The notes under the pieces: model-generated
The model's database searches: none
Told to the model about the DNA's origin: nothing
What the model saw: the letters and a program-made list of their open reading frames with translations, nothing else
Assembly (NCBI GenBank): GCA_025716855.1
Contig: JAIXMQ010000002.1
Coordinates: forward strand, 496,001-560,000
Source: Pilaira anomala
Taxonomy: Eukaryota; Mucoromycota; Mucoromycetes; Mucorales; Mucoraceae
Direction of reading: 5' to 3'
DNA length: 64,000 nucleotides
Shown: piece by piece, positions 4,108 to 11,526 of the stretch
Layout: every line of letters begins with the position of its first letter
Numbering within the stretch: the stretch's first letter is position 1
Made by a program: the position numbers and the translations under genes

Positions 4108-5150
4108 TTAAAGTAAGATTCTATCGTAAACTTGTCCTGCTTCTACACAGGCTTGAATAGCGCCAGCACATAATTTGATTGATTTAAATAATTGCCCAAG
4201 TTCTACGGGATCACGACAATTTTTGACTCTTTCAGTCAACTCATTCATCTTGGAAGAGAGTGTAGTAACAACGTTATCTGATGAAAAGGAACTGGAAGCA
4301 ACTTCCTCGGTCTTTCTATCTACTTTTTGTCTCTTACGTTCTTCTACCATTGGTGATGTAATAGGTGAGTGAATCAATTTATTTTGTTGTTGTGTTTGTT
4401 GAGCTGCTTTTTGAGCTTCTTGTTGAGCTTCTTGTTGAGCTTTTTGTTGTGCTTGTGCTTGCTGTTGTTGTTGTTGTTGTTGCTCTTTTTGTGCTTGTGC
4501 TTGTGCTTGTGCTTGTTGTTGTTGTTGTTGTTTCTGCTTTTCTTGCTGTTGTGCTTGTTGCTCGTCTTGCTGTTTCTTTTTATTCTTTTGTACCTGCTCA
4601 GCTTCAGCTTCGGTTAAAATGATATTCTCACAAATGACACAATACATTTGTTTGGTATCTGGATTACGAACTAGAGGTACCTATATTTACTTATTAGATA
4701 ATAATTCTATTTCACGCACTCCCGTTCATACTTACAGCATAACAAGAATCGTTAGGACAATGTTCGTTTAAGAGAGCCCAACGCTGAAGCATTTTTTGTC
4801 CAATTAATTGAGATGCCTTGGAAGATTGCTCTCTTCTTTGACGACGAATCGCTAATTCATCTTGCATGTCATCATCGGTTTTTTTCTCGGCTGCTTTATA
4901 ATTGTCATTGGCTCCACCAGTAGGGAGTGTGTCGTGGAGTGTACAGAATTGAAGGGATCTGTCTTTAGAGCTCATCAAAGGAAAGGAGCAAGATTCGACA
5001 CTACAAATCTCATCTGTCATAATCTATAAGGTATTTGAATCAATATTCGTAATTCCATTCTTAGTTTTCATTCTAACTTACCCATCCTTGGAGCATATAT
5101 GTGCCAAGAAGATCACCAGCTTCTTTTTCGGTTCTAGATGTTTGCAACAT
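4108..5150 (-). CDS. Protein with two ZNRD2/SSSCA1-type zinc domains and a polyQ/A coil
   Basis: Three exons: 5150-5082, 5023-4736 and 4680-4108, all phase 0; product about 309 aa. The second half of exon 2 plus exon 3 gives the classic autoantigen p27/ZNRD2 pattern: IGQKMLQRWALLNEHCPNDSC, then VPLVRNP and YCVICENI, with four zinc-binding Cys. Exon 1 and the start of exon 2 give a second, upstream copy: LLGTYMLQGW, then C-x4-C, FPLMSSKD and FC-x2-H (third and fourth ligands Cys and His). The C-terminal part is a Gln/Ala/Lys-rich stretch (CAG-type repeats) and a final helical tail. In animals ZNRD2 is a small single-domain protein linked to centromere/mitosis and to integrator or phosphatase complexes; its role here is not known. 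The start was chosen because exon 1 completes the first domain. Confidence 0.8.
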
Positions 5151-5372: not shown

Positions 5373-7814
5373 TTATTTAATACTTTTGTTTTGGTGGATC
5401 GAAATCCAGCCTTCTCTACGGAGAGTATTCTTCTTTGCCCAGAGCTCTAAGAATTTACCCCGTTTCAATGATGGGTTATAGACAGCTTTTGGTAATAAAG
5501 TTTCGATCATTTCATATACACCGAGAGGTTTAGGTACTGTAAATTCTTCGTGAATCCATTGTTCTTTTGGTAATTCAAAATCAATAATTACATCTGGAGA
5601 ACGTTGATGTCTTAATTCAAACCCTTCTCCTCTCTTAAACATAAGTAGAATTTCCTTTGTAGAGCTAAAATATGGGCTTGGTTCATCTAATCCAACATTG
5701 TTTACCGATTTTTTAAACCAAACAAGGTTTTCAACATATTTACAGTCTGTAAAGTAATATTATCAATCATCTTAAATCATTCAAAATAAAATAGTTATAA
5801 AAAAACACACACTTACTCATAGAATACATGATACGGACAATATCAGCTTGAATTAATTTGTGAGACCAAACGAAAATCATGCCAGCAGTCATATGTGTGG
5901 ACACTTTTTCTATTAATTTTTGGAAATCTAATAGATTCCAAGTACAAGCACCATCATTTTTACCATCAGCAACATAAAACTCCCATGGTGGATCCACCAA
6001 TATGCATTCTAATGCTGAAGTATCTAACTCGGATGTTTGTAACAGTTCATCTAATATTGGGACACAATCATTCATATCGTCTAATTCTATATATTTCGAT
6101 TTCGATTCATCTATTTTATTCCTCGTTGATAGAGGTTGAATTCTTTTAACTCCACTGTATAAATCGTTCGGAATTCTAACGTGAGATATGAATTCGTCTG
6201 GCGTATCCACTTTTCGTTTTTTTACACCCGTAAAAAATCGTGATAGTGAAGATTGCTGAATTTTCGATGAAGAATCGGTCGATGTGTTTGACATTGGTGG
6301 AGGTTGAGACGTTTTTCGAACTATACTCTTTTGTAATAATCTAGATATAATTATCAGTCATCAAGTAATCATATACATGTTTGCAGATATGTCGTTTTTA
6401 ACTTACAATTCAGTCGTAATTAGACTTCTGCGCCATTCTTGCTTATCATACCAATATTTATCTCTATTGTGTTTATCAAGGTAAGGTCTATATTAGAGTA
6501 TACAATTAGTAACGACAAAAATACAATCATCCTTTTAATTTACATTAAGAACTTTTGATAATTTTCTAGGCGGTCTCGCCATTCAGTCTCCCAATCTCTA
6601 GCTTGGAGATGAGCTACTTCTGGTTCAGATTCCATCATGAAATCTTCTTCTTCTCCAGGAATATATTGCTTGAGAGGCATCTTTTTAACCAGATCCGATA
6701 TATTGGATCGCTTATTAGCTGTAACTCGAGGTACAGATTTTGGCTTTGATTTTATAACCGAGGTAGTTGATTGACCAGAGCGACCATGGAACTCTTTAAG
6801 CCATTGATCAATATTTTTCTCTTCTAGCTTTACGTCAGGATCTTTCCATTCGGGGCCCAATTCGGTATTGGGTACAATACCAGATAATCTTTCCTTGTGT
6901 GCTTGCTTTAATTTTCCATCGACAGTAATATAACTTTCATCCTGTAGTTTGCCATCACTCACCAATTTACGATAATAGTTCATACACTGATATCCAACAC
7001 GATGAGGAATACCACAACTAAATAAACCCCAAGATGAACCAATTTTCCATCCATTTCCAATCCATTCATCATATCTCTTCATAAATAACTTATGTTCATG
7101 CGCTGACCAGCCACCATTTTGTTGTCCTTCTCCAGGTGCAACAAATCTGTAATAAAAACCTTCGGGACTCTGGAATTCACTTTACATTAGTTTTGAGATG
7201 ATGTTTGATAATAAGTTTAGTATTCCAAACACTTGTAATTTACCATATATCTATTCTCCCAGGCTTTGATACGGGAGCCTTGCCATTGTTTTACTGATTC
7301 CTTCGTAAATACATCTTCACCTACTCTTTTTCTTTTTAAACTTGGTTTAGGTGATGTGCTTGGTTCATCACTAACCGAAAGTGATTCAAATCGAGGCGTC
7401 TCTGTATCAACAAGTTCATCCATATCCATGTCTTTTGTTGGAACATTTGTTGTTATACTATCTGTTACTGCCTCCTCCATTTTTATTGCCTCTTGCCAAA
7501 AAGATTCATCTTCTTCCATGTCTACATCACTTTGACTTTGTTGTTCTTGTTTCATCTGTTGTAGAATAAAGAGGGGTTCTTCCATACGACCTTTACCTTT
7601 TCCTTCAACCTGTTTATATACCTTTTTTTTTAAAAAAAATACTTCAAGAGATTTATAACAACCAATTTACCTCTGGTAATTCTTGTAAAGGAATTTCGAA
7701 GTCGTCTATAGGCTCCTCTTTTAATGTATTCTTTTTCGATTTTGATAAGCTGATCGGTTTTTTACTTGAACCGATCTTTGGTATAAAAGACGACGATCCA
7801 TTCCAAGAAGACAT
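5373..7814 (-). CDS. MT-A70 family adenine methyltransferase with Myb/SANT-like domain and PIP box
   Basis: Six exons on the minus strand: 7814-7671, 7609-7244, 7169-6544, 6487-6407, 6340-5817 and 5746-5373. All junctions are GT-AG and phase-compatible; product about 704 aa. Layout: acidic/Ser-rich N-terminus; Trp-rich Myb/SANT-like domain at about residues 185-240 (GGWSAHEHKLFMKRYDEW, then VGYQCMNYYR); linker; PIP box QSSLSRFF at about 435-442 followed by KKRKV; MT-A70 catalytic domain with DPPW at about 522-525, then YVENLVWFKK and a C-terminal FLELWAKKN block. DPPW is the catalytic motif of active MT-A70 enzymes (METTL3, METTL4, MTA1), which methylate the N6 of adenine in RNA or DNA. No CCCH fingers as in METTL3 were seen. 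The fusion of the Myb-like exons with the catalytic exons rests on splicing: the frame would otherwise stop at 6540, exactly at a GTAAAT donor. Likely a nuclear DNA-6mA writer, MTA1- or METTL4-like; the substrate is inferred. Confidence 0.85.
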
Positions 7815-8338: not shown

Positions 8339-11300
8339 CTATTGTCTATCTAATGAATCCAAGCGATTTATGTGTTCTTTCACCATACCCGTGACAATAG
8401 ATCTCAAACGAGGTTCACCCATATATTCCGCACCAGCAACGTCAAATGCATACGCCAACAAGATACAGGTATGGTTATGAAGTTGGTCAAGATTTGTAAG
8501 GAAGATATCGTCCCTTTTACGAGGAGAATTTTTAATCATATTATCATTTCCATCTTCAGATTTTCCAAAGAATTCCTTTGATATCACACGGCAAGCTTCG
8601 TTTAATTTGCCACATTCTACCAAACCTGAAATATATCTATTCCAGTTATGTTCATCAAATTCGTATCCTTCACTAGAAAGCTGATTCCAAAGTGATTCAA
8701 TATCTTCTATGCGGTTTTGATTGATGAGTGAATTCAAGTAAATAGAAAGAGCAAAAGGAGAAGTTTGTTTACGAATGACGGATTTTTCAACTTCTAATAA
8801 ATCTTCTTCGTCCAAAGTTAATAAATTGATGTAGTTATATTCCATTTTCGGTACTGGTATAGGTCTTTCTTCAAAGATTGGGTCAAGGTTTTCAAGGTAA
8901 GTTGCATCGTTTTTATAAAGTGCATTCCACATGGATTCAACAGCAGCATAATTCGATTCATTATCAAAGATATTCATGAGTGTAGTATAAACAGGCACTG
9001 TAGTAGGGACAGAGAGATCACACATGTTCTTGTAAAGAGCTTTTGCCTTTTCTGGATTATTTATCTTTCCATATGCATCAATAATAGGAGCAAACAAATA
9101 CGAAGAAAGTTGATTTTTGGGTTTAAGTCCATTTGCAGCAGACTTGTTTAATACATCTTCAAGCGTTTCAGGCACTCGTTTTTCATAATTCTCATATTTT
9201 GTATCCTTTAGTAAATTATGCTTTCGGGTATCTGAAATTGATTGTTTGGATCTTTCCACAATTTCTGTTAAGACTGATTCTGCTAAATCAAGTTGATCTG
9301 ATTGAATGTACCCATTAATCAAAACACTCCAAGCCACATTTGAAGGTTTCCAGCCTGCTTGAAGCATACGGTCCATTACTCTTTTTCCATCTTCTGGTCT
9401 ACCACATTCAAAATATGTTTGCATCAATACAGTCCAACAAACAGGGGAAGGTATAATATTGTTACTTTCCATTGTCGTCATTAAAGATTCTGCTGCTCGA
9501 ACTTCTTTACGTCTTGAATAAAAGTTCATCAAGATACCGTAAGTATATTCATTAACGGGAACCGATTTTGACATACGTTTATAGGTTTCCAAAACTTTTT
9601 CCATAGCGTTATTCTTAGTATAGACATACAATAAAGCGTTATATGCTTGTGAAGTGAGTCGATATTTTGTTTTGAGAATATCAAAGATACTTTCAGTACC
9701 TTCAACATCGCCTGCTTTTGCATAAGAATTAAGTAAAATAGTATAGGTATAAGAACTTGGCATTACGGATGCTTGAGTCATCATGGCAGCTACTTTTCGT
9801 GCACCTTCTGGATCACCTTTTCTTGCATAATAATTCATTAAAGGATTAAATGTTCTTGCCTCTAAACCCATATCTTCTTTGGCCATGACATTTAAAAGCA
9901 TAATGGCTTCAAGAATCAATTCGTTTTGTACAAGTCCTTTAAACATTAAATTGTATGCTACACGTGCAGGTGGTAAACCACGATCCGATTGTTTTTTCAA
10001 AAGTTTTACAATATCCATAGCTGTTTCATGATCATCCGATTGAATAAAAAGTTCGATAAATGAAGAAAAGATGTATGGAGTAGGCATTATTTTACGTGAT
10101 TTCATATCGTAGAATAATTTCTTTGCACCAGAGAGGTCACCTTGTTTCGAAAACATGTCGATTAATGTACCAAATGTAACAACGTCAGGCCGAAGACCTA
10201 CTTCAGATAACATATTATAAATTCGAGTTGCACCAGTAATATCAGGTTCTGGTTTTTTATGAGCGTGAATATCAATTAATGCGTTAAAAGTAACTAATGT
10301 TGGTACAAGACTTTCAGCCAACATTTCATTCAATAACTCCATAGCACGATCAATATCACCAGATCTACCTACTTTATGAATTAAAGCAGTCATCATAGGT
10401 ACTGTACGTGGAATTCTTCGCTTTGTCATGATATCGTTAATTTCTAAAGCGTATTCAGGCCTACCAGCACCTGAGAAATACATGACCATATCCTTATACA
10501 AAATAGGATCCAATGACATCGTCTTTCCAGCCATATTCATACCAATCTTTGTCCACAGCCATTCCCAAACTTTTTCCACCATTTCATCTGTCCTCTCTGC
10601 CAATTTGATATTTGACATTAATATAAGCGTAATAGACGAAGAAGGCTGAATATTTCTATCTAACATCTCTCCATAAACTGCCATTGATTTTTCTGCAACA
10701 ACTTCAGGGCTTAGTAGTCTATCATTTTCCGCATAACAAGTCAACAAGATATTAAATGGCTTTTGTACTGCATCATTGTCGGTAGATGATACAAACAATA
10801 AATCTTCATTCTTTAAATCCTCAAATATTTTTTCCATGGCTGACAAATTACCGTTCAATCCTAAAGCTCGCATCAATAATAGTTTTTCTTTTCTACCCAC
10901 ATTATAACCTAATTTCTTCATATCTTCTACAAGAGTTAAAATATATTCCATTTTTTGTGCTTGATTTGATTTGGTATGATTGAAAAAACTGATTAGTCGT
11001 CGGTATTGGTCTCGAGAGACGTATCTTTGAAGGTGACGAGATGCCAGGTCGCGATAACATTCCCAAACAAGTTCTGGGCTACCTCTTCGTATTAATGTAA
11101 ACGTGTTATCTATCAAGGAGTGTGCAATAGAAGCGTTAGATTGGTCAAGTGCTGCCGTCAAGATATCATCGCTATTCTCTATAAGTTTATTATTGCTGCC
11201 AGTGGTCGTTGCTTCTTTACGAGTTGAAAGGGATCGTGTCCATGATATGTGAGGTCGTGGTAATATATTTGTTGCGTTGGTAATAATAATGGGTTGTTTT

Positions 11301-11526
11301 TTCGTTGTGGTTGTAATGCGTCGTCTAGGTTTCGTTAATTGAGCTTTACATTCTTCTTTCCATAAATTGGCAATCAACTTTGTGTTATTACATTGACTGC
11401 GCTATTATAAAATTACGAGTTAGTTTTATTTTATTTCTGTTTTTAATTTCGCTTTTTTTTTAAAAAAAAAACGGAGGCGCTTACTCGGCTTTGCTTGCAA
11501 GACCCTGCAATGGCTGAAGTCAACAT
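8339..11526 (-). CDS. Large pentatricopeptide repeat protein, probably mitochondrial
   Basis: Two exons: a 14-codon first exon 11526-11485 (MLTSAIAGSCKQSR) and 11401-8339, phase-0 intron with donor GTAAGC; product about 1034 aa. The short first exon supplies the ATG; the long frame alone has only a non-ATG beginning. The N-terminus is rich in Arg, Lys and Thr (KPRRRITTTTKK), as in a mitochondrial presequence. From about residue 190 to 800 there are well over ten degenerate 35-residue PPR motifs, for example VTFNALIDIHAHKK, DVVTFGTLIDMFSKQGDL and YTYTILLNSYAKAGDVEG. PPR proteins bind single-stranded organelle RNA and act in its processing, stability or translation. The RNA target cannot be told from the sequence. 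No catalytic C-terminal domain was recognised. Confidence 0.88.

Follow-up and report, generated by a model that had tools for sequence, protein, structure and literature searches.

A putative PCNA-docking motif in a second Mta9-like subunit encoded by early-diverging fungi

Symmetric 6mA is abundant in some early-diverging fungi. According to excerpts of a 2026 review, it is not yet settled whether MTA1c of fungi works as a de novo or as a maintenance enzyme (PMC13297926). The question is posed anew by a locus of Pilaira anomala contained in a stretch of 64,000 nucleotides (contig JAIXMQ010000002.1, positions 496,001 to 560,000), here termed the window, for which an earlier note had proposed an MTA1-type 6mA writer tethered to PCNA by a PIP box. 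In our analysis, the encoded protein instead turns out to be a second, Mta9-like subunit of the AMT6/7 family, with the MTA1 of the same organism being encoded elsewhere in the genome (at a locus termed L001), and the conserved PCNA-docking motif found in this subunit suggests how adenine methylation could be copied at DNA replication. We favour, with moderate confidence, a role as PCNA-docking partner of MTA1 that would restore hemimethylated ApT sites behind the fork.

The gene is located on the minus strand of the window between positions 5373 and 7814. As anticipated in the earlier note, it can be predicted from the sequence as six exons (7814-7671, 7609-7244, 7169-6544, 6487-6407, 6340-5817 and 5746-5373), which join in frame to encode a protein of 704 residues combining SANT, PIP and MT-A70 elements. 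The five introns are 56-74 b long and follow the consensus, with GTAAAT or GTAAGT at their 5' and AG at their 3' end. In the spliced translation, the proposed PIP box QSSLSRFF occupies residues 435-442 (6232-6255, minus strand) and is directly followed by the basic flank TGVKKRKV (residues 443-450, 6208-6231), both as described before. The same holds for the MT-A70 domain at residues 517-697 (5397-6009, with the intron 5747-5816 inside; Pfam PF05063, 36 bits at a cut-off of 23.9) and its intact DPPW motif (residues 522-525, 5983-5994). Since QSSLSRFF and DPPW share exon 5, the former is in this gene model neither intronic nor part of a separate transcript. The closest relative of the protein is P0001 from Thamnidium elegans (80% identity at 100% query coverage). 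In P0002 and P0004, the motif and the MT-A70 part lie in a single open frame together with the second half of the SANT-like domain; the respective contigs (3375 and 2084 b) may be transcript assemblies, which would back the splicing. Neighbouring regions on the minus strand contain a gene encoding an Auto_anti-p27 domain and a long stretch rich in glutamine (4108-5023), as well as a 1020-residue open frame in which PPR repeats are numerous (8339-11401).

The AMT6/7 proteins are treated as one family in the accessible text of a Nature Genetics survey (PMC12695648). Within the set of solved chains, the window protein scores 67 bits against MTA9 and AMT7, 55 against MTA9-B and 33 against MTA1; with MTA1 serving as outgroup in the tree described below, its closeness to MTA9/AMT7 versus MTA1 rests on these bit scores. 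An identity as MTA1 was rejected in view of this low score, the changes at two signature positions and the presence of the true MTA1 at L001, which reaches 240 bits against solved MTA1 and 120 against METTL3. The window protein shares the MT-A70 fold and DPPW with MTA1/AMT1, whereas the LEIFGR of MTA1 reads LELWAK, with WAK in place of FGR, and TIGNE reads SIHQN, where GNE is not kept. A structure model of P0001 (mean pLDDT 56.7, pTM 0.39) was used for domains and for the low confidence of the linker only. In a fold search with this model, AMT7 ranked first (9o6k_A, E 6e-10) with MTA1 and METTL14 chains close behind, TM-scores were low and MTA9 and MTA1 were not clearly separated, so that the match indicates an MT-A70 fold and little more. 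An exon-by-exon search of the P. anomala assembly for the MT-A70 family, which missed the window gene itself, detected three other places, which include L001 and the canonical Mta9 of the same genome (L003; G000:C163, 362-2109), a spliced protein of 466 residues that reads DPPI and carries no strict PIP motif. Within the reach of this search, the genome thus encodes a single MTA1 plus two subunits of the AMT6/7 family, and a PCNA gene was found as well. Canonical fungal Mta9, as exemplified by L003 and P0044 from Rhizopus microsporus, resembles the window protein in family and methyltransferase domain but starts with an N-terminus of the VGYVEDGES type, lacks a strict PIP motif and shows a degraded DPPW (DPPI in L003, DPPF in P0044), whereas the window protein has a SANT-like N-terminus and an intact DPPW. 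The remaining place, L002, appears METTL4-like by eye.

To follow the proposed PIP box across homologues, we used the strict pattern Q..[LIMV]..[FYW][FYW] and two sets of proteins. The fungal PIP-type set consists of the window protein and 20 of the 36 rows obtained in two protein searches. The 16 rows left out are P0013 from Balamuthia, P0014, which lacks the MT-A70 part, and P0015-P0017 and P0026-P0036, which are not of the fungal PIP type (among them P0032 from Piptocephalis, canonical by its position in the tree). As Umbelopsis isabellina and Actinomortierella ambigua contribute two rows each, the 21 rows are not independent. The canonical set comprises the Mta9 of P. anomala and P0037-P0151 (116 rows, from 120 listed of 296 matches), of which 106 show a VGY-type N-terminus and five are shorter than 390 residues. 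The strict motif is present in 20 of the 21 fungal PIP-type rows, once in each and 82-120 residues before DPPW, and it extends over Mucorales, Umbelopsis, Endogone, Bifiguratus, Actinomortierella, Tieghemiomyces and Entomophthora, with P0011 from Calcarisporiella as the single exception. Among the 116 listed canonical-search rows it is found once (P0097, QLPVSRYW), which is below the approximately 3% expected from shuffles. Since a strict motif also appeared in 6.7% of 2000 shuffled versions of the window protein, its occurrence in a single sequence is not significant, whereas its conservation is.

The check suggested in the earlier note, an alignment of orthologues at the Q, L and FF positions, thus came out in favour of the motif, whose residues are kept in place. 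In the alignment A3, which contains 19 fungal rows and Balamuthia and leaves out the window protein and P0009, Q and L are found in 19 of 20 rows each, S in 16 and the first F in 18; the last position is F or W in 19 rows (including an F of Calcarisporiella that is outside any motif), and the following G is present in 17. Identity in the linker columns that directly precede the motif is mostly 15-50%, and most x positions of the motif vary, which makes the motif a conserved island inside a variable linker that is predicted to be disordered. In the P0001 model, the segment 374-451 has pLDDT values below 50 and contains the motif at 411-418. The net charge of the seven residues on either side is positive in all 24 rows with a strict (20) or near (4) motif, with a mean of +4.1, although the flanks of P0012, P0013, P0023, P0028 and P0029 are ordinary for their own protein, in which stretches of at least the same charge make up a fraction of 0.12-0.39. 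In the available part of a study on PCNA-binding peptides, motifs are described to reside mostly in disordered regions and positive flanks to raise affinity, for one motif over four orders of magnitude (PMC6881253). With a conserved QxxLxxFF-type sequence, a location predicted to be disordered and positive flanks, the window protein has the properties expected of a PIP box, and as a sequence feature the claim of the earlier note is upheld. Downstream, conservation goes on into GVK, PD and IP, and part of the conservation in the motif region could therefore be structural. Near matches occupy the same place in four non-fungal rows, namely P0013 from Balamuthia (QLDLSFWI), P0027 (QLDLSTFI), P0028 (QLDLSFFI) and P0029 (QRDLSFFI), which are not strict motifs because the last residue is an isoleucine instead of an aromatic. 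In eight other non-fungal or canonical rows that were checked, a near match was found in P0026 only, elsewhere in the protein. In P0029, a protein of 743 residues, the near match at 360 precedes the methyltransferase domain, and a strict motif, QSELRQFW, is found at 732 near the C-terminal end.

The methyltransferase domain itself leaves catalysis uncertain. DPPW is invariant in all 20 rows of A3 and the PKP lysine is intact in the window protein; the FGR and GNE positions, which we take from work on METTL3 to bind SAM in MTA1, are changed, and the protein may for this reason act as a tether instead of a catalyst, with the role of a partner being the safer reading. Among the listed canonical-search rows, a simple pattern gave DPPL, DPPF or DPPI for 101 of 116 (120 of 296 matches listed), and at least five read DPPW (P0121, P0128, P0132, P0139 and P0143). 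P0121 and P0132, and likewise P0026, combine DPPW with a canonical-type N-terminus. The existence of canonical-search rows with DPPW suggests that this motif may be ancestral. The idea that the Mta9 of Coemansia is devoid of its core was dropped, as P0109 and P0117 read DPPL.

The Myb/SANT-like domain, claimed in the earlier note for about residues 185-240 and here placed at about 148-258 (6906-7312, minus strand, with the intron 7170-7243 inside), is a weaker call. It draws on weak Myb matches of a profile and of relatives and on homologous pieces; for the window protein alone, no Myb family of Pfam reaches an E-value of 1. In the relatives P0005, P0007 and P0013, Myb_DNA-binding was detected below cut-off, and a profile of five sequences matched a Myb structure with an E-value of 0.0008 for the whole sequence and 0.18 for the best single stretch. 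Homologues of the domain are encoded at three further places of the same genome (L009, G000:C171; L011, G000:C209; and G000:C13:559877-560188). The domain could supply DNA binding. By eye, the L009 protein continues into a U-box-like stretch.

The relationship between the different groups was investigated in a maximum-likelihood tree of the methyltransferase domain with 54 rows, consisting of 49 of 151 fetched proteins, the window protein, Mta9 and MTA1 of P. anomala and two PDB chains. The fungal PIP-type proteins form one clade (18 rows, support 99/97) and the fungal canonical Mta9 proteins another (17 rows, 99/93), while the ciliate chains of AMT7 and MTA9-B cluster with P0033 (three rows, 100/100). 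The root is unsure, since the branch of the MTA1 outgroup is very long. A common clade of all 22 PIP-type rows, including the four non-fungal near-PIP rows, which the tree does not place firmly, was not rejected (p 0.18), a value that does not demonstrate such a clade. Orthology with ciliate MTA9-B was rejected, as a clade of the 22 rows with the chain 8xyl_B gave a p of 0.0002 for a group that was named after inspection of the tree.

The latter chain, whose sequence is also found in the entry 9u9k titled MTA9-B, is of interest as it contains a PIP-like stretch, EKKITDFF. We assume that MTA9-B and AMT6 are the same protein, with EKKITDFF as its PIP box. In contrast to the fungal proteins, this stretch has E in place of Q and resides inside the methyltransferase domain of a chain that lacks DPPW, and the grouping of MTA9-B with AMT7 and P0033 instead of the fungal PIP-type rows makes the fungal arrangement look independent. 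For the AMT6 complex of Tetrahymena, recruitment by PCNA, which starts maintenance methylation, is reported in excerpts of the 2026 review (PMC13297926), and as a principle a PCNA-recruited 6mA complex is thus not new. The fungal protein resembles AMT6 in being an AMT6/7-family subunit, in the case of AMT6 a partner in the AMT1 complex, and in its PIP-like sequence. DNMT1, with which the earlier note had drawn a parallel, is an unrelated enzyme that methylates cytosine. Our searches of the open-licence literature yielded no adenine methyltransferase described as carrying a PIP box, and the word PCNA is absent from the main text of the survey of the family (PMC12695648). New within the literature searched is that fungi have, beside canonical Mta9, a clade of its own that combines SANT, PIP and DPPW.

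In the mechanism that we propose, MTA1 would be the catalytic 6mA writer and the MT-A70 domain of the PIP-type protein would pair with it, replacing canonical Mta9. The Myb/SANT-like domain would hold DNA, and through the PIP box the complex would be attached to PCNA behind the fork and remethylate hemimethylated ApT sites there. Canonical Mta9, lacking the motif, would serve a PCNA-independent pool. Binding of the PIP-type protein to PCNA is very probable and pairing with MTA1 is likely; a role in maintaining methylated ApT sites behind the fork appears somewhat favoured and the two Mta9-like subunits might divide the labour between them. It is unlikely that the protein would dock on PCNA without MTA1, either as lone adenine methyltransferase of DNA or RNA or as a replication or repair factor reusing the MT-A70 fold. 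Its intact DPPW and PKP lysine, the invariance of the former in A3 and its replacement in most listed canonical-search rows would suit such a protein, and SANT and PIP elements would fit other replication roles; yet the domain is closest in sequence to the partner subunits MTA9 and AMT7, FGR and GNE of MTA1 are replaced, and DPPW is possibly an ancestral leftover, given its presence next to canonical-type N-termini. We consider it quite unlikely that QxxLxxFF instead has a structural function where the methyltransferase domain begins on its N-terminal side, with no role in docking, even though conservation continues downstream and a PIP-like sequence of Rad54 was judged to be non-docking in the accessible part of another study (PMC3869717). 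The distance of the stretch to DPPW, its low model confidence in P0001, the single strict match among the 116 listed canonical-search rows and the preservation of Q, L and the aromatic pair amid mostly varying x positions all weigh against it.

That the protein is already known as the Myb-like subunit P1 of the MTA1 complex in Mucorales would be in line with the database name 'Myb-like domain-containing protein' of some relatives and with the term Myb-like DNA-binding protein used for P1 in excerpts of the review (PMC13297926), and p1 of Mucor is given by an identifier (1569123) only. In the ciliate complex, p1 and p2 are homeobox-like according to the available text (PMC9174199). In the part of their work at hand, Lax et al. 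set the DNA-binding P1 apart from Mta1 and Mta9 (PMC11258239), and an identity with P1 appears improbable for a protein whose MT-A70 domain scores above the Pfam cut-off. PCNA serves repair too, and the protein can be envisaged as a partner subunit in adenine methylation that is de novo or linked to repair, using PCNA for repair synthesis instead of fork maintenance, but we regard this as highly improbable. The review leaves the choice between de novo and maintenance activity of the fungal MTA1c undecided, whereas the precedent in Tetrahymena is maintenance (both from excerpts of PMC13297926).

A PIP box that is conserved in a second, distinct subunit of the Mta9-like kind offers a single mutable handle on de novo versus maintenance methylation, in a fungal design that stands beside an apparently independent ciliate one. 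Tentatively, and with slightly less than even confidence, we suggest that a PCNA-tethered 6mA partner subunit predates the split of the early-diverging fungi and perhaps that of fungi and amoebae, the latter because Balamuthia and P0027-P0029 keep QxDLSxFI or QLDLSFWI in place and a common clade was not rejected. Replication-coupled adenine maintenance would in this case be ancient in eukaryotes, and ciliates would have arrived at it separately through a motif at another place of the subunit.

Among the listed matches, both subunits are found in at least nine named species: Absidia cylindrospora, Umbelopsis nana, U. isabellina, Apophysomyces sp. BC1015, Actinomortierella ambigua, Cunninghamella echinulata, C. 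blakesleeana, Rhizopus stolonifer and Calcarisporiella thermophila, the PIP-type row of the last lacking the motif. Many other fungi, including R. microsporus, R. delemar, Phycomyces nitens and Mucor lusitanicus, are represented among the listed matches by canonical Mta9 with no named PIP-type row, and at the level of these protein rows the PIP-type gene may therefore be patchy, also where symmetric 6mA is plentiful. The canonical Mta9 proteins P0086 (M. lusitanicus), P0098 (Parasitella) and P0113 (M. circinelloides) are 47-53% identical to that of P. anomala, and the one of Mucor flavus is 84% identical. In M. lusitanicus, symmetric 6mA sites are few (0.32%, as given in excerpts of PMC13297926), which together with its divergent Mta9 would fit a relaxed constraint.
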